Assembly: GCA_026874595.1 (NCBI GenBank)
Contig: CM049309.1
Coordinates: 72,710,426 to 72,774,425 of the forward strand
Reading direction: 5' to 3'
Origin: Sipunculus nudus
Lineage: Eukaryota > Annelida > Sipuncula > Golfingiida > Sipunculidae
DNA: 64,000 nt
The notes under the pieces: generated by a model
What the model was told of the DNA's origin: nothing
What the model saw: the letters and a program-made list of their open reading frames with translations, nothing else
The model's database searches: none
Translations under genes and position numbers: made by a program
Part shown: piece after piece, positions 11,337-64,000 of the stretch
How the letters are laid out: every line of letters starts with the position of its first letter
Numbering within the stretch: the stretch's first letter is position 1

Positions 11337-12511
11337 TGTATCCGCCAAAATAGAGTTTTGCGGATACTATGTTTTCAGCCCACCGCCGCGGCCGCGGCGA
11401 AGGTGTCCAGAGAACTCCTTCGTAACCGCTGGGCAGAATTTTACGAAACCCGGGATTATGTTCAGGTCACAGGTGAACTGCTGCGCCCCGATTTTGTTTT
11501 GACCTCTGACCTTTCCTCTGCGCTCTGCGTCCGTTTGTGCGTCTGTTTCAACACATAACCCACATATCTTGGGAACCGTTTGACCGATCAAGAAAATTGT
11601 TTTGCACAAATGTAGCCCTTGGAGAGCTTTATAACATACACAAAAATGGTGGTGCCACCTGCAACCATGTTTGCACAGTGTCCGTCTGTTTGTCTGCCTT
11701 GGGTTAAAATCACTCATATCTCTGCAGTGGTTTGACTAATTCACCTGAAATTTGGCATGCATATACATCCTGGATAGCTTTTCTGATTTTATGACAGGTG
11801 GCGCCACCTACTTTCACGTTTACGCTGCAGACATCCAAGCTCACATCTCGGGAACCGTTTGACCGATTGGGCCAAAATTTTTGCATGTGTATAGATCTCA
11901 CATAGCTCTTTATCATACGCAAAACTGGTGACACCACCTGCAGCCATTTTTGCACAGCTCCCGTCTGTTTGTCTGCCATGGGATAAAATCACTCCTATCT
12001 CGGCAGTGGTTTGACATATCTGCCTAAAATTTTGCAGATTTATACATCCCCGACAGCTCTCTAGATTTTATGACAGGTGGCGCCACCTGCATTCTAGTTT
12101 ATGCAGCAGACATCCAAGCTCATATCTCAGGAACTGTTTGACCAATTGGGCCAAAGTTTTGCATGTGTATAGTTCTCACATAGCTCTTTATCATACACAA
12201 AACTGGTGGCGCCACCTGCAACCATTTTTGCACAGCGTCCATCTGTTTGTCTGCCACGGGCTAAAATCACTCATATACATGTAGTGGTTTGACTTATCTG
12301 CCTTAAATTTTGCATATATACAAATTGGACGGCTTTCTGGATTTTGTGGCAGGTGGCACAACCTACATACACAATTTGGTTGCAGACATCCATGCTAATA
12401 TGCAACACTTCACTATATTTCCCCTTGCCACTCAATCCATGCCTCACTTCACCCGTTCCACTCTGATTTCGGGGGATACACGTAGTCACTTGTCGACTAC
12501 CCGAATTCTAG
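11337..12511 (+). mobile_element. HINE-like element, family P2, copy 1
   Basis: The left end starts TGTATCCGCCAAAA and pairs with GTTTTGCGGATAC a few bases later, forming a strong 5' hairpin. The right end has the hairpin GTAGTC...GACTAC (about 12483-12500), followed within a few bases by CTAG next to T, as in rolling-circle elements. The core is an alternating dimer: the palindrome GGTGGCGCCACC or a variant occurs at 11648, 11797, 11927, 12076, 12205 and 12352, with spacings 149, 130, 149, 129 and 147. It is inserted into family C. Open frames on both strands here (up to 116 codons) are repeat by-products. Confidence 0.8.
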
Positions 12512-23609: not shown

Positions 23610-24768
23610 TGTATTTGCCAAAACAGAGTTTTGCGGATACTATGTTTTCAGCTGGATGCTGCCACCGCGTAGGTGTCCGGAGAACTCCTCCGTAACCGCT
23701 AGGCGGAATTTTACGAAACCCGGGATTATGTTTGGGTCACATTTGAACTGCTGCGCCCTGATTTTATTTTGACCTCTGACCCTTCCTCTGTGTCCATTTG
23801 TGCGTCTGTGTTCACACATAAACCTCCATATCTCTGGACTCGTTTGACCAATCAGGAAAAAAATTTTGTACAAATGTAGCCCTTGGATAGCTTTATAACA
23901 TACACAAAAAATGGTGGTGCCACCTGCAACCATGTTTGCACAGTGTCCATCTGTTCATTTGCCTTGGGTTAAAATCGCTCATATCTCTGCATTGGTTTGA
24001 CCAATTCACCTGAAATTCGGCATGCATATACATGCTGGATAGCTTTCTTGATTTTATGACAGCTGGCGCCACCTACATTTACATTCATGCTGCAGACATC
24101 CAAGCTCATATCTTGGGAACTGTTTGACCGATTGGGCCAAAATTTTGCATATGTATAGATCTCACATGCATAGCTCTCCATCATACGCAAAACTGGTGGC
24201 GCCACCTCCTACCATTTTTGCACAGCGTCTGTCTGTTTGTCTGCCATGGGATAAAATCACTCATATCTCTGCACTGGTTTGACTTGTCTGCCTAAAATTT
24301 TGCAGGTTTATACATCTTGGAGAGCTTTTTTGATTTTATGACAGGTGGCGCCACCTACATTCACATTTAGGCTGCAGACATCCAAGCTCATATCTCGGGA
24401 ACCGTTTGGCCGATTGAGCCAAAATTTTGCATGTGTATAGATCTCACATAGCTCTTTATCATACGCATAACTGGTGGCGCCACCTGCAACCATTTTTGCA
24501 CAGGGTCCGTCTGTTTGTCTGCCGTGGGGTAAAATCACTCATCTCAGCAGTGGTTTGACTTTTTGCATTTGTATACAACTTTGATAGCTTTCTGGATTTT
24601 GTGGTAGGTGGCACAACCTACATACACATTTCGGCTGCAGATATCCATGCTAATATGCAACACACCTCACTCTATTTCCCCTTGTTACTCAATCCATGCC
24701 TCACTTCACCCGTCCCACTCTGATTTCGGCAGATACACGTAGTCGCTTGTCGACTTCCCATATTCTAG
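23610..24768 (+). mobile_element. HINE-like element, family P2, copy 2
   Basis: The left end TGTATTTGCCAAAACAGAG pairs with GTTTTGCGGATAC. The right end has the hairpin arms AGTCG...CGACT followed by CTAG (24765-24768). The palindromic motif occurs at 23914, 24062, 24195, 24344, 24473 and 24607 (exact at 24195, 24344 and 24473), with spacings 148, 133, 149, 129 and 134, matching the dimer of copy 1. The last interval is shortened by about 14 bp. Confidence 0.8.
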
Positions 24769-28534: not shown

Positions 28535-28955
28535 AGTATTTCTCAGTGGTTATACCCTTAATTAATGTCTCCAGACCTACTTGTATCCTCAAAATTCAGG
28601 TCTGTATATTTTGGATAAGTAATTGTACAGATTACAGTACTATACAATCATTTTCTTGCTAACATGCACCATGACTACAGGAATTGCTGGCAGTAGGTGA
28701 GGGTGGTGGTTGATTGAGGTTATCACAATGGAAATAGGTTCACCGCGGCAAGTTATGTCGGCTTGTTTATTCACCATTGTACATAATAAATGATTAATAA
28801 TTCTTTCTTTATAAAACTCAACAATGTAAAAGTCATATGGGTCTGTCCAAATCCAGTTTGTTGATTGTGCTGTCAGGAATAGTGTATAGGATACTCTAGC
28901 ATCGTGCAAATGCTGGTTTCACTACTTATAGAATATTAGTTGTATATGTATGTAT

Positions 28956-29027
<72 letters not shown>

Positions 29028-29312
29028 TGATTTTATCTTGATAGGTTGTTATTGTGATGAGATGTGCCTTGCTGATGGAATGATAGTAATATATTGATAA
29101 TATAGCACCTCACATTCTGGCTTGGATGTAGAAAAGCTTCCATATACATACACATGACTCATAGACAGCTGGTACAGAGTGGCCCGTATGTGGAACAGGT
29201 ACATGCGGATATAGATTTATGTATCTTATATGAAAATCATGAATTTCTAAAAGTGTACATCATCAGTGTTTGTTGATTTTATTTGACAAGGCCATTTTGA
29301 AATTTTCTATTC
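28535..29312. other. Unique sequence with TA microsatellite
   Basis: A GTAT-type tract (28941-28964) passes into (TA)n at 28965-29025. An 89-codon minus-strand frame at 28640-28909 is not recognised. Nothing else is seen. Confidence 0.5.
28965..29025. repeat. TA microsatellite
   Basis: A pure (TA)n tract of about 60 bp follows a GTAT-type repeat. Confidence 0.95.
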
Positions 29313-43473: not shown

Positions 43474-43539
43474 GCTAGCAAGTTGGCAAATGCTGCCAGC
43501 CAGAAGACAAAGGAATTAGGACACAGTGTCAATGAAAAG
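43474..43539 (+). CDS. ARFGAP1: ARFGAP1 exon (segment between ALPS1 and ALPS2)
   Basis: ARFGAP1 stimulates GTP hydrolysis on Arf1 at the Golgi and helps COPI coat cycling; its ALPS helices sense loosely packed, curved membrane. This 66-nt exon encodes ASKLANAASQKTKELGHSVN then EK. It corresponds to the vertebrate segment with the ASQK.SELGHSLNE signature just before ALPS2. The acceptor is TTTTTGCTTGTTACAG and the donor AAG/GTAATT; both borders are phase 0. The catalytic zinc-finger domain and ALPS1 must be encoded upstream; I did not find them in this window. Confidence 0.88.
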
Positions 43540-47195: not shown

Positions 47196-47255
47196 GTGAA
47201 AGAGGGGAAAATTATGGAGAACTTGTCGGCAGGCATGACTGATTTTGGTAACAAA
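47196..47255 (+). CDS. ARFGAP1: ARFGAP1 exon, ALPS2-like copy A
   Basis: A 60-nt, phase 0/0 exon encodes the 20 residues VKEGKIMENLSAGMTDFGNK. It aligns with the single vertebrate ALPS2 start (VKEG..DDVSSGVS type) and with the next exon here. It shares V1, K2, G4, S11, G13, M14, F17 and K20 with that exon and keeps hydrophobic residues at 6, 7 and 10. An ALPS helix has bulky hydrophobic residues on one face and mainly Ser/Thr/Gly on the other; this copy has Asp at 16 and Asn at 19, a slightly less typical face. The donor AAA/GTAAGA is good but the acceptor is weak, which suggests optional inclusion. Skipping it keeps the reading frame. Confidence 0.82.
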
Positions 47256-48002
47256 GTAAGATTGCTATCTTACTGAGGGTTATTTGCTAAGGATAAGCTT
47301 AGCAATCCACTGTCAACCCTGAGCACTACAGCTTAAGTTAGCATCTCTGGCAAAAAAAACCCTATTTATAAGAAGTCCAAAAGTTTTAAATTTCCATAAA
47401 ACCTTGTAAAGTACATATAATTTTAAGCATGGTAAGTTCTCTGTCATCTTTTATTCCCATTTCAACATTAAAATAAACTTATTTTTTAATTTAAAAAATA
47501 TCAATTTTAGGGTGAAACAAAGATGAAAGAGAAAATAAATCTTTGAGATATTAGCTTGAACTTTTATATTAGCCCACTAAAAAGTTGCATGCTCTTCTCT
47601 TTTAGAAAAAACAATAACACACTAAAAAATAAATTTTAATTATGTTAAAATACTAAATGACACCTTCAATATAAATGCCATCAGGAAGAACACTGTACAA
47701 GATTTAAATGATATATATTTTATGTCCCCTAACATGAATTTAAAACAAAGGAAGGGGTTTTTGCCTGAGCAGCTACCTTAATACCTGCAAATTAACTGAC
47801 CATTGCTGAAACCTCACCAGAACCTCAAGTGATTCACCCTTGTGTGTAAATGACAAGTTAGCATAAAAACACCAAAATTAAAAAGGAATAATAATGGCAT
47901 ATAATTCTTATCCTTTTATCACATGGTTAACTACATTTTCATTCAAACAACAGTGACACCTATAGGCAATTGGCCTATCCTTTAAGAAATAATTCTCCCC
48001 CC

Positions 48003-48042
48003 ACCCCACCACACACACACACACCCTCACACACACACACCC
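48003..48042. repeat. CA-rich microsatellite
   Basis: Two (CA)n blocks are separated by CCCT, within an ARFGAP1 intron. Confidence 0.9.
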
Positions 48043-49745
48043 AGCATTACCTGCTGCTGTATGATATATTAGCCTGATGACCTGAGTGATTCTGTAGTCA
48101 TGTATACTCTTTTATTTTAACTCTTTGTCATATTTTATGAAATGAAATCCTGGCAAGTAACAATATGTATAAGATGCAAATGTGGGTATCATATATTTTG
48201 AATTCTCATTGAGGTTTTTATAAATGTAACGTTTGGTCTTTATCTTGTAACTGAATTTTTAAGCTAGTGTAGCAAGTAAAATGTTACAATTTTGACCACA
48301 CCTGGGTGCAGTATAGATCTAAACATTCTCCCCAGGAGAGACTTATAAATTACAACTGATACAGTGAATATTCCAGTTAGGTCTCCAGACAGACAATAGA
48401 GTAAAAAAGCCCAGAGGTTTAGGTTCCTCAGCCAACAAACACAAAGTTGAAAACATTTTTTTATAATGGGGATTTGTATGTCTGCAGGAGGACTGCTTGG
48501 AGGTGTATAATTTACATCCAAATTCAGTACTTACATCACTTGGTTTCTCATGTCATATTGCCAAACGTTTTATATTAAGTCTCTTGTTTGTTTGTTTGCT
48601 TACTAATCAATTGAAATGAATTGTGTTGTGGAGGGAAGTCACTGATATGAAATTGAAACTGAACTGAGACCTATGGGCAAATGTAGATTATATTGGTGCT
48701 TATATGGATATTCATATCATTCAAGGGTATGCAGTTTTGTAAATTACTGAAAATTTTCTTGGTTCACCAGCACAGTAATAATGTATGTGCATTATGCTTG
48801 GTGGTCACATGGGGTTTAGGCTTCTTTTAACTGATATGAAATTTGGTGGGTATCCACCTGTATGTGCACAGAGCTTACTAACTGTATGGTAAATATGGGT
48901 GAATTACAGACAGATTGTGGGTCAATTATAATTCCCATTATAAACACACAGGTCTACACAGCAACCTCTGATGTTACATGCAGGTGCCATCTGTCATCAT
49001 GTTATCATTTTCATTGTCATTCATGTGGCAGTGCCACCGGTAGGCCATGGTAATAAACTGTTTAAAACAATTAGTAAAAGCCCAAATCTCTTCAGATCAC
49101 CTGTTTAATATGACGGTTAATTATCTGTTCAGTTTGGGGCATTGATCATGGTTCTCTTGATATACGATGGCACTTGCCGTAATTTAACATCCCATTTTCG
49201 GGTGGTAATAAACTATCTGTCAATATTGAATTCTCCGTAATAAGATCTGTTATGATTTTTGGAGGTGCTGATGGAAAATAAGCTCATAGCTGATAGTTAA
49301 TTTACAAAATAAGCTGAAAGTTGATGGTTAATTTTCAAAATAAGCAAAATGCCTGGAGCTTCTCTGATATCATCTCTGGTGTGCAGGGTCCTGGATTCAG
49401 TCTTTAGGCATATCACAAATTACAAAACATTTGCTGTATTTGTCATTGTTCGTAATACACTGCACATCTTTGCAGTATTCATAAGGTCCAATCATCATTC
49501 GGGTCCTTAACCAATAATCATTAAAATTAAGGACAATGATTCAGTTATATTTCTTCATGGTTGAAATTAATTATGCACAGAAATATTGCAGCTATTAAAG
49601 TCTTATCATCATTTGGATAATTACCAAAGCATATCATACAGGACAAAAGGTTACATTTGCTACTGCCCATACTGTAATTAAGGTCCATACTGTAAATTTA
49701 CTCTTTTCATGTGCTTACTTTGTAAATATTCCTTTGGACTATAAA

Positions 49746-49822
<77 letters not shown>
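49746..49822. repeat. TA microsatellite
   Basis: A pure (TA)n tract of about 76 bp, the longest in the window. It directly precedes a block with an unusual sequence. Confidence 0.95.
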
Positions 49823-49825
<3 letters not shown>

Positions 49826-50080
49826 GGTAGTGTTACCCTCCGATGTAAAGTGCTCTATGGCCTACAGACTAGGCCAGAGCGGTATAACTTTGGAGAAAAA
49901 CAACACTGTAAATTCACTACAGTCTGTTTCATGGGGTGCGACCCGATCATCAGGTGAATGTTGTTAGAATATAGCTAACGGCGTGGTTTGAAAAGCCGAG
50001 ACTTTACGAGATTACGAGATTATGCTTTGTGCGTATTGGGGGGAACATTTAATGACTGACACACATATATATATATATAT
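49823..50080 (-). mobile_element. Candidate Penelope-like or ribozyme-bearing tail (tentative)
   Basis: The block is bounded by TA tracts (49746-49822 and about 50065-50080). On its minus strand it reads CTGATGA (plus 49946-49952), then a segment with GGGT-CGC-ACCC that can pair, then GAAA. This order matches the conserved core of hammerhead ribozymes, which are found in terminal repeats of Penelope-like retroelements. The bases next to the core do not pair well and I could not establish stems I and III. The higher GC content and multiple dyads nevertheless set it apart from its AT-rich setting. Confidence 0.3.
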
Positions 50081-51911
50081 TTGTAATTGTTAACTAATTA
50101 ATATGTTATGCATTTATAAAGTGTCTGCCCAGTCTTTGTGCTATATTTTATTTATTGTAGATATTGATTTGTTATTTTCTTTAAATGGCAAAATAATTGG
50201 CCTGACAAGGGAAATGTTGCACCAGTAATTTTAATACATGATATCATAAATAGTGGTTGTTGATGTGAGTTTAGTGCCCCCTTAATATTACAAAAAGTTA
50301 ATTATAATAAGTTGATCATGTACAGTGTGCTGCAGATGCTGATTGTGACATAATAATTTTCAAGAGCATTTTATTTATGTATGTTTGATCCTGTCCCTAG
50401 AGATTCTATGAAGTTGAGAAAATTTACAACTGAGGGTCCTTTATGTTTGTGGAGCTGTAGCCTTTGACCATATCAGAAGTGATTGTCAGGACATTTAGGG
50501 TTTTGTTATATAGCAGATGTTTTGTATATTCAAAATGTAATTGATTTGGACATAAAAATGGTGAGCATAATATAACCATCTGATATATGGTAGTAACTTG
50601 ATAAAATACAATCATCTGACTCTCCATATCCATGCTCCACAATGGTTGCATTTGAACATGTATGACCTTGGCACGTTTTTCAAGGTCACAGAGGTAATAG
50701 TCCTAAAAAGAGGTCAGCACAATAACTTGAAAGAACTAGATAACTGGCAGTTGACAAACAACTAAAGGTATCTGCCAAATCACAGAGGCATGGATAAAGT
50801 GATTCTTGGAATCTCTCCTAATGTGACAGCCATCCAAATCTGTAGCATCAGAGATTTCCAAGTATCCCAAGATGCACGGACAGACAAAACTAAAGATTAC
50901 TGTAGGTGGCACCACCAGTCACATGTACAAGATAATGCCACCCTAGATCTGTCATGTACAATTTCAGGCTTATACATTAAACCACTCCTGAGATTAATGT
51001 ATTGATGTATTTTACAGAAACATAGTACAGCATAGTACATTAAAAGAAGAGGTAATGTGTTAGCATGGCTTTCATTCACAATTGTAGGGATTATTAGATA
51101 TTTTATCGAGGGACAAGCATGTTATCACTGCCAGAAGGTAAAGCATGTTACATTTCACAATGTTTACCATTGGTGGGACTTGGATTTGAGCATTTGGCAG
51201 GGACACACCTTCCGTCCTGATCTGACACCATGAAAAAGGGAATGTGCCACTTTCATGCTGGATGTTGACACTTGTCTCTCCAAATAAACATTCTCTCCAA
51301 ATAAAAAATAGAACACTATTTGTATGTCCATGGCTGTACTTTAATTTCCAGACTGGATGTTGGAGATATTTATTAAATATTCAGCACCACTGCTGCCACT
51401 GTAGATTATCCTTGTGAAAGAGATAACTCAGATATCTTTTGGCATATTTAATTCAAATTTTGCTGATGCATAGATTTTGGTTTCAAGGTGAAAACTTTTT
51501 AAATTGGTACATTAAACTTTCCTAAAAGAGTTGCCTTCACCTTGTATTGGCCCATGGTAGGTGAAAATTTGCACTAAACCTTTGTCTCCAGAATAGTTAT
51601 GATGTATAATGGTTCTGAAATTTGTTATGGTTCAAGATAGTGGACAGCTATATCTTGTGCTTAGCACTGGTGCTACCATCTGCTGTATTTAGTTTCATTT
51701 TTTGTGCTATTTTACTGCAAAACTGTTAGATTTCTTTGAAAGTTTGCATGAACATATATGTGGGTCAGAGCTGCATCCTGGACAGATTAGTTTGACCTCA
51801 CATTATTTTCTGATTGATGTCAACACAGTTCTCCCACCCCTTCACTAGTGGATAAAATGGAGCAATCACAGTCATATTTTCATCACATTTTCTGTTTTTT
51901 TTCCCCACCAG

Positions 51912-51971
51912 GTGAAAGATGGAACACTGCTGAATGATGTATCACAAGGAATGAGCAGTTTTGCTTCTAAG
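51912..51971 (+). CDS. ARFGAP1: ARFGAP1 exon, ALPS2-like copy B
   Basis: A 60-nt, phase 0/0 exon encodes VKDGTLLNDVSQGMSSFASK. It is closer than copy A to the vertebrate ALPS2 segment, with the DVS.G.S..ASK pattern conserved. The Ser-rich polar face is typical of an ALPS helix, which folds on contact with curved, poorly packed Golgi membranes. The acceptor has a strong pyrimidine tract (TTTTTTTTCCCCACCAG) and the donor is AAG/GTACGT. An hAT MITE begins only 26 bp downstream of the donor site. Confidence 0.88.
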
Positions 51972-53859: not shown

Positions 53860-55075
53860 ATCAACTGTTTTTAATTTGATACTGTATCATTCACATTTTA
53901 CTGTATTTTGAAACATTTCGACTTACAAGAATCTACCTATGTAAGGGTTTTATTCATTGATTTCAGCTCAGCCTTTAACAATATCCTTCCCCATAAATTT
54001 ATTGGAAAACTATCAAACTGGGTCTTAATATTAACATGTGTAACTGAATCTTAGACTTTTTAACAAATCGGCCTCAAGTGGTTAAGATTGGTAACATTAT
54101 TTCCGAAGAATTGGTCTTAAACAATGGAGCACCCGAAGGGTTGTGTGCTTTCACCAAAATTGTACTCTCTATTCACCTATGACTGTGTCTCTACTTCTGA
54201 TGATTGCCTCATTGTAAAATTTGCAGATGAAACAATAGTTCTAGGCTCATCTGGGGAAATAACGAAAGTGTTTACAGCAATGAAATTAAAACTAACTTTG
54301 TGGTGCTCTGAAAATAATCTGGAGTTAAATGTAAAGAAAACCAAGGAGATGATAATTGATTTTAGACAGAAGAAAACTGAAATATTACCCTTAGTAATTG
54401 AAGGCTCCCAGGTTGAAATCGTTGACTGTTTTAAATTTTTAGGAATGTTTATTTCTTCTGATTTGAAGTTTGCCGAAAATGTTAATTACTGCATAAAGAA
54501 GGCACAACAACATTTATTCTTTCTAAGGAACCTAAAAGATTTCAGGCTCAGTCAACCGATTTTATTAAAGTTTTATTGGGTGGTAATTCAATCCTGACGT
54601 TGTCAGTCACTGTATGGGGAGGCAGTATCACTGTCCAGGAAAGAAACTGTCTTTCGAGGGTAGTAAGAACAGCTGAGAGGATCATTGGGGTTCCTTGACC
54701 CACAGTTGACTCCATATTTCAAACATGATTGTTGAAGAAAGCAAACGACATAATAGAAGACTATAGTCATCTGGTGCACTATTTGTTTAAAAAAATGAAA
54801 ACGGGGGTTCGCTATAGGTCCCTATCAGGCAATTCCAAAAGAACTCAAACTAGCACTTATGCGTCAGCTCTTCGGGAATTAAATATATCACTTGCAGCAC
54901 AATGATCTAGTCAAACATTCTTAGTCATATGTCTTTTTTCAATACATAATTTTATTTTATTATTTCTTGTTTAATGTGTTTGTTTAAGCAAGCCACTCAA
55001 GCCAAATACTATTGTATGTGATGATTTTATAACATATAAATAGCAATAAACTATATCTTATCTTACCTTATCTAT
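53860..55075 (+). mobile_element. 5'-truncated, decayed non-LTR retrotransposon (reverse transcriptase part)
   Basis: Palm motifs of a LINE reverse transcriptase are readable in order: FIDFSSAFN (motif A, about 53958), NGAPEG followed by CVLSPKLYSLF (motif B, about 54123-54170), KFADET (motif C, about 54217), then NLELNVKKTKEM and FKFLGMFIS. Downstream the thumb/C-terminal pattern (VTVWGG, RTAERIIG) is seen in another frame. The second catalytic Asp of FADD is Glu here. At least three frame changes and several stops break it, so it is dead. The 3' end is an AATAAA-containing tail followed by TATCTTATCTTACC-type short repeats, typical of CR1/L2/Rex1-like LINEs. It lies in an ARFGAP1 intron in sense orientation. 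Confidence 0.88.
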
Positions 55076-57084: not shown

Positions 57085-57230
57085 GTGTCCAGTGTGAGCA
57101 TGAAGGGATGGAAAGACTTTTCCTCCCGATTCTCAGACAACAGGACGACTTTATCCTCAGCTGAGGGTGCCCCAGGAGAAGGTACATCACTGCTGGGCGG
57201 AGGTGGAGGTTCAAATCGCAGCGGTGCCAG
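57085..57230 (+). CDS. ARFGAP1: ARFGAP1 exon, KGW(K/R)D segment
   Basis: A 146-nt exon begins at phase 0 and ends at phase 2. It starts VSSVSMKGWKDFSSRFSD, matching the conserved segment that follows ALPS2 in vertebrates (Lys-Gly-Trp-Arg-Asp with an aromatic-rich follow-up). It then runs through a Ser/Thr-rich part into LLGGGGGSNRSGA. The acceptor is TATATATACGGCAG and the donor CAG/GTAACG. The glycine-rich linker agrees with the disordered C-terminal tail of the family. Confidence 0.88.
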
Positions 57231-63274: not shown

Positions 63275-64000
63275 TGTATCCGCCATAACAGAGTTTTGTT
63301 GATACTATGTTTTCAGTTGGCCGCCACCGCACAGGTTTCCGGAAAACTTCTCCGTAACCACTAGACAGAATTTTTTTAAATTCAGGATTATGATCAGGTC
63401 ACATGTGAACTGCTGCGCCCTCATTTTTGGTTGACCTCTGACCTTTCCTTACTGCCCAGCATCCATTTGTGCGTCTGTTTCCACACATAAACCCACATAT
63501 CTTGGGAACCGTTTGACCGATGAGGCTAAAAATTTAGCACAAATGTAGCCCTTGGATAGCTATATAATATACACTAAACATGGTGGCGCCACCTGCAACC
63601 ATTTTTGCACAGCATCCATCTGTTCATCTGCCTTTGGATAAAATCACTCCTATCTCTGCATTGGTTGGACTTATCCACCTGAAATTTTGCAGGTTTATAC
63701 ATCCTGGACAGCTTTCTCGATTTTATGACAGGAAGCGCCACCTACATATCACGGTAATGCTGCAGACATCCAAGCTCCTGTTTCTGGAACCGTCTGACCG
63801 ATTGGGCCATAATTTTGCATGTGTATAGATCTTACATAGCTTTTCATCATACGCAAAACTGGTGGCGCCACCTGCAACCATTTATGCACAGCGTCCATCT
63901 GTTCATCTGCCTTGGGATAAAATCACTCATATCTCAGCAGTGGTTTGACTTATCAACCTGAAATTTTGCATGTTTATACATCATGGACAGCTTTCTCCAT
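63275..64000 (+). mobile_element. HINE-like element, family P2, copy 3 (cut by window end)
   Basis: The left end TTGTATCCGCCATAACAGAG matches copies at 11337 and 23610. The palindromic motif or its variant lies at 63582, 63731 and 63861, with spacings of 149 and 130, the same alternating dimer. The 3' end lies beyond the window. Confidence 0.85.

Follow-up and report, generated by a model that had tools for sequence, protein, structure and literature searches.

A duplicated and diverged exon for the first half of ALPS2 in ARFGAP1 of Sipunculus nudus, and its predicted alternative use

Introduction

Does the ARFGAP1 gene of the sipunculan worm Sipunculus nudus hold one or two versions of ALPS2, a membrane-curvature-sensing segment of the encoded protein, and, if there are two, how are they used? 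The question is raised by a stretch of 64,000 nucleotides (C4:72710426-72774425; hereafter, the window), in which two exons of equal length encode similar 20-residue segments at the position of ALPS2. Splicing control of the ALPS2 segment is already known in mammals: the brain form ArfGAP1B has a 10-residue insertion after residue 239 and lacks 22 residues after residue 259 (PMC5730162, in the text available), and the change of isoform in brain alters ALPS2 (PMC4944158, likewise). Here, we describe the two exons as a paralogous pair, copy 1 and copy 2, and lean slightly towards a use in which a transcript would contain mainly one copy, in a mutually exclusive or strongly alternative manner, after an old tandem duplication of which both products were kept.

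Results and Discussion

The gene was modeled by aligning human ARFGAP1 to a region of 134 kb (the window plus 40 kb upstream and 30 kb downstream), and the model comprises coding exons only. Eleven coding exons with GT-AG sites form a single open frame, with the coding part running from C4:72678449 to 72780302; exon 7 (E7), copy 1, copy 2, and exon 8 (E8) lie inside the window and the other seven outside it, the ArfGAP-domain exons preceding the window by about 25 kb in the same orientation and the intron before E7 measuring about 54 kb. When the copy 2 form of the predicted protein was compared with the PDB, human ARFGAP1 (9.2e-64) came before ARFGAP3 (3.1e-29) and ARFGAP2 (2e-27). The Pfam domain ArfGap (PF01412) was matched with 117.4 bits, and the ALPS1 and ALPS2 regions follow the GAP domain in the right order when the exons are set against the human protein. 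A search of the assembly (1.43 Gb) with PF01412 returned at least 15 matches at E up to 1, two of which, at C4:72.68 Mb, are E2 and E3. Judged from sequence comparison, the gene is an ARFGAP1 orthologue whose N-terminal ArfGAP domain is nearer to that of ARFGAP1 than to those of ARFGAP2 and ARFGAP3; PDB, Pfam, and the in-order exon alignment thereby bear out the identity proposed in the initial annotation of the window.

All four exons considered here lie on the forward strand of the window. E7 (ASKLANAASQKTKELGHSVNEK; 43474..43539, 66 nt, phase 0/0) is the presumed common upstream exon and aligns to residues 229-252 of the human protein. It is followed by copy 1 (VKEGKIMENLSAGMTDFGNK; 47196..47255), a GT-AG intron of 4656 nt (47256..51911), copy 2 (VKDGTLLNDVSQGMSSFASK; 51912..51971), and E8 (VSSVSMKGWKDFSSRFS...; 57085..57230, 146 nt), the presumed common downstream exon. 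As the initial annotation had stated, the copies are both 60 nt long, in phase 0/0, and bounded by GT-AG sites, and 8 of their 20 encoded residues are identical; 35 of the 60 bases agree, with 12, 14, and 9 identities at the first, second, and third codon positions, respectively, of 20 each. Inclusion of copy 1, copy 2, both, or neither yields 471, 471, 491, and 451 codons including the stop, all in one frame and ending at the same stop, and the earlier claim that any of the four patterns keeps the frame therefore holds.

The likeness of the copies stands out from the surrounding sequence. Aligned with each other, the two 20-mers score 49 under BLOSUM62. The forward strand of the 134-kb region contains 459 stretches of the form AG-60 nt-GT, 165 of them stop-free, and for the 163 stop-free stretches other than the copies the maximum is 8 against copy 1 (mean -19.6, standard deviation 9.6) and 10 against copy 2, so that no further copy of the 60-nt exon was found among the 165. 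If the splice-site demand is dropped, the next-best forward 20-mer in the same region scores 32 against copy 1 and 31 against copy 2 (40,652 stop-free 20-mers), and the next-best in the six frames of the window scores 32 and 23, respectively (37,720 stop-free 20-mers). By these scores, the paralogy of the copies is far beyond chance, and the exon duplication proposed at the outset is supported by the gap between 49 and the values of 10 or less at other splice-flanked sites.

By counting along the sequence, the 20 residues of each copy presumably correspond to about residues 259-278 of the rat protein. ALPS2 of rat ArfGAP1 comprises residues 264-295, with DVTTFFSGK at 289-297, and is without structure until it makes contact with a curved membrane (PMC13139335, in the text available). 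Each copy is thus predicted to encode only the N-terminal half of ALPS2, in version 1 or version 2, and the C-terminal half would come from E8. What had been annotated as a duplicated ALPS2 exon is therefore duplicated indeed, but each copy falls short of a whole ALPS2. The copies align to the vertebrate segment as had been proposed, with 9/20 (copy 1) and 11/20 (copy 2) identities to the human one. To our knowledge, the human ARFGAP1 protein has a single segment of this type, and both copies align to that same one; the idea that vertebrates might possess the two segments as two separate exons finds no support in the human protein as far as known.

The two versions differ in composition. The 20-mer of copy 2 contains five Ser/Thr and four charged residues, that of copy 1 two and six, and that of the rat protein four and six, with a net charge of 0 in all three. 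In the 32-residue segments of the copy 1 and copy 2 forms, Ser/Thr number 8 and 10 (rat, 8) and charged residues 7 and 6 (rat, 6). The copy 2 form would accordingly resemble a typical ALPS more closely, and the two forms may differ in affinity or curvature preference.

The 1-kb flanks on each side of the copies lack convincing similarity (best E 0.52) of the kind that a recent segmental duplication would leave, so a recent origin of the pair is rejected. The distance between the copies (8/20) is much like that between each of them and its mammalian counterpart (9/20 for copy 1 and 11/20 for copy 2), a divergence that is compatible with great age, while 20 residues cannot date the event. A genome search with joined exon peptides revealed no retrocopy (fossil complementary DNA) among the five best candidates scored: the four places found are the four exons themselves, and E7, copy 1, copy 2, and E8 have one genome place each among the best candidates scored.

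Alternatively, copy 1 might be a relic in decay that splicing now passes over. This we consider very improbable. Copy 1 has a weak acceptor (4.4 bits), as a relic might; however, the acceptors of E5 and E8 are weaker still, and copy 1 retains an open frame, a length of exactly 60 nt, both splice sites intact, and its 9/20 identities to the human segment. Neutral decay was simulated by letting one copy drift freely while the other accepted synonymous changes only, and runs were kept if third-position identity was 9/20 or lower. Among these, the frame remained open and the similarity was no lower than that observed in 29 of 1540 runs at 30 proposals, in 6 of 2634 runs at 40, and in none at 60 to 120 (0/3544, 0/3782, 0/3853, and 0/3907). 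A short, fast drift can produce such similarity, with 88 of 400 qualifying runs matching at 20 proposals. Mean third-position identity in the simulation was 12.1, 10.1, and 8.6 at 20, 30, and 40 proposals, the observed value of 9 being nearest to 40, and a relic rarely reproduced the observed pair at this matching divergence. Within the terms of this model, the simulation favors a maintained copy 1, leaving some room for a relic that diverged quickly.

If both copies are coding, the geometry of the predicted helices bears on how they could be combined. At 100 degrees per residue, the hydrophobic face of residues 6-20 points to 196 degrees in copy 1, 199 degrees in copy 2, and 200 degrees in the rat segment, and the moment of the 32-residue segment is 0.42, 0.42, and 0.46, respectively. 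Shuffling of the exon-encoded part equaled the observed 32-mer moment in only 1.6% (copy 1) and 1.3% (copy 2) of 20,000 trials. For the best 18-residue stretch, the shuffle p was 0.03 in the copy 1 form, 0.06 in the copy 2 form, where this stretch sits mostly in the E8 part, and 0.05 in the rat segment. Over the whole segment, the moment at 100 degrees is 0.42 with either copy, 0.27 with neither, and 0.21 with both in tandem.

These values bear directly on a constitutive inclusion of both copies, which would build a longer tandem sensor and which the initial annotation had entertained. In tandem, the face of copy 1 is turned by about 157 degrees relative to copy 2 and by 102 degrees relative to E8, so that no single continuous amphipathic helix would form at 100 degrees per residue. 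Yet the frame is kept, no hard-wired exclusion stands in the way, ALPS2 would still arise from copy 2 and E8, and the tandem has the highest best-18 moment of all forms, 0.55; therefore, local helix formation is no argument against the tandem. At 102 degrees per residue, moreover, the single and tandem forms are equal (0.30). A tandem sensor is less favored, and we regard it as distinctly unlikely.

The splice sites were scored with a primate-type matrix. The acceptor of copy 2 (12.2 bits) is the highest of the ten acceptors scored, and that of copy 1 (4.4 bits) lies at the 87.6th percentile among AG dinucleotides of the window, with E5 (3.9 bits) and E8 (2.8 bits) below it; E7 has 9.9 bits. 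The donors of E7, copy 1, copy 2, and E8 score 8.4, 7.5, 9.1, and 7.3 bits. The contrast between a weak upstream and a strong downstream acceptor in the initial annotation is therefore real, but the weakness of the former is not exceptional in this gene. RBFOX-like TGCATG motifs are not in excess in the exon cluster (6 against 5.9 expected from the window; GCATG, 17 against 12.1), and one TGCATG begins 167 nt upstream of copy 2.

Length, phase, splice-site type, and homology are published predictors of mutually exclusive exons (PMC3228551, in the text available), and the copies have all of these in common, being homologous internal exons that neighbor each other and agree in length, phase, and type of splice site. 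That the mammalian counterpart is itself subject to inclusion or skipping also speaks for alternative use. For the use of mainly one copy per transcript, the following course of events can be proposed: (i) a small exon for the first half of ALPS2 would have been duplicated in tandem long ago; (ii) both copies would have stayed coding, presumably maintained by selection; (iii) the pre-mRNA would take mainly copy 1 or copy 2 and join it to the common exon E8; and (iv) whichever copy is taken, an amphipathic segment of 32 residues would result, its two versions being chemically distinct and perhaps different in how they bind curved membranes.

Several observations, together with the fast-drift runs described above, weigh against this. 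First, numerous pairs of similar appearance in other genes are known not to be exclusive. On the fly X chromosome, 90 of 16,180 exons that are not mutually exclusive share these features (counted per transcript; 6 of 1705 genes), and of 65 predicted internal mutually exclusive exons, 26 were annotated (PMC3228551). Of 6,541 human candidates, 1,399 passed validation at the one-read level, and many similar neighboring exons are, according to the same study, not exclusive; in the text available, the exclusive cases mapped to structures lie in folded domains, unlike ALPS2 (PMC5740500). Having weighed these base rates, we therefore lowered our confidence in the use of one copy per transcript by a small step, to a little above even. 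Second, the helix values do not separate the forms consistently. The faces of copy 1 and copy 2 deviate from that of E8 by 58 and 55 degrees, compared with 27 degrees in the rat segment; with a turn of 96 degrees per residue, the moment is 0.51 with copy 1, 0.49 with copy 2, and 0.44 with neither; the best-18 moments are 0.50 (copy 1), 0.48 (copy 2), 0.49 (neither), and 0.55 (tandem); and, taken by themselves, the 20-mers lack significant amphipathicity (p 0.07 for copy 1 and 0.18 for copy 2). Third, none of the tabulated hard-wired modes of exclusion, namely a U2/U12 clash, an intron that is too short, or a frameshift (PMC5740500, in the text available), was found at the copies, as both have U2-like GT-AG sites, the intron between them is 4.6 kb long, and 60 nt cause no frameshift; for 484 of 629 human clusters, too, other mechanisms have to be assumed (PMC5740500). 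Competing RNA structures were not indicated either: between the three introns, with simple repeats masked, the longest exact complementarities are 13, 12, and 12 nt, which is chance level, being equaled by 50, 95, and 87% of 60 resampled pairs each.

The same results bear on two independent cassette exons, with transcripts containing copy 1, copy 2, both, or neither. All four combinations are in frame, splice types, intron length, frame, and intron complementarity gave no exclusion mechanism, and the form with neither copy still has a best-18 moment of 0.49. In mammals, moreover, brain ArfGAP1 omits the homologous segment. Counted along the sequence, the 22 residues missing in rat brain presumably overlap 19 of the 20 positions homologous to the copies. 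Because the rat brain form does without the corresponding stretch, the cassette mode is a serious rival; the drop of the whole-segment moment with neither or both copies speaks against it, and we consider it rather unlikely. The use of mainly one copy per transcript can also be taken further, to a truly exclusive old pair that would give Golgi ARFGAP1 one or the other of two curvature-sensing helices depending on the tissue, with mammals reaching a related end by skipping a single kept exon. We offer this only as a doubtful possibility.

The arrangement has partial counterparts in known systems, as far as these are described in the text available. Mammalian ArfGAP1 isoforms belong to the same gene family, and splicing acts on the same ALPS2 segment in them; however, the segment is removed there, and a second homologous copy is neither mentioned in that text nor known from the human protein. 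Mutually exclusive exons predicted by WebScipio are alike in equal length, phase, splice type, homology, and position as neighboring internal exons (PMC3228551), whereas exclusivity is a prediction in the present case and ALPS2 is unstructured off the membrane, in contrast to the folded regions of PMC5740500. Exons 3/Ab of U2AF1 and 4a/4b of OGDH are likewise two alternative exons in one gene, those of U2AF1 with unequal splice signals; they belong to other genes, the OGDH pair is termed mutually exclusive and that of U2AF1 is described as duplicated exons subject to alternative splicing, while such use of the ARFGAP1 pair is a prediction. Among the titles in a limited search of open-licence literature, we found no earlier description of a duplicated, diverged ARFGAP1 exon pair.

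Other features of the window and assembly

E6 (C4:72699406-72699462) and E7 were considered as extra copies of the duplicated exon and ruled out (shuffle p 0.34 to 0.63 against copies 1 and 2). Between themselves, they have a repeat of 11 residues in common, ASKIANTASDK in E6, at the tail of ALPS1, and ASKLANAASQK in E7, with 8 identities and none of 2000 shuffles as good. The stretch between ALPS1 and ALPS2 may therefore be an old internal repeat, going by this likeness.

Between 43540 and 57084, 108 inverted-repeat pairs were found, the 25 longest all being one TA microsatellite. A TA microsatellite occupies 49747-49822 in the intron between the copies, and another long one lies within 28900-29097, also in an ARFGAP1 intron. 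At 53875-54597, in the intron between copy 2 and E8, are open fragments that resemble the reverse transcriptase of a non-long-terminal-repeat retrotransposon. Related open fragments at 12015-12284, 24128-24295, and 63758-63961 of the window all contain NWWRHL.PF.HSV.LF.C.G.KSLI, which suggests a dispersed repeat family.

Elsewhere in the assembly, a COX1-family search gave ten matches (loci L026-L035) on contigs C60, C61, C62, C66, C72, C74, C75, C89 (two), and C123. On C60 (L026), coxI-, coxII-, and coxIII-like genes stand in a row and are bacterial, and a 20-kb stretch of C123 (52.9% GC) carries genes of bacterial type. The near-equal COX1 scores on the other contigs suggest related strains, perhaps symbionts or contaminants.

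Biological significance

The two copies would probably allow cells to select, by RNA splicing, which version of a curvature sensor is made. The copies provide two natural versions of one half-helix in the same register, and hence a natural experiment on the residues that set curvature selectivity. They also form a clean case for asking whether mutually exclusive splicing reaches disordered segments that fold on membranes. If both copies are used, ALPS2 would be a splicing-controlled module beyond mammals.

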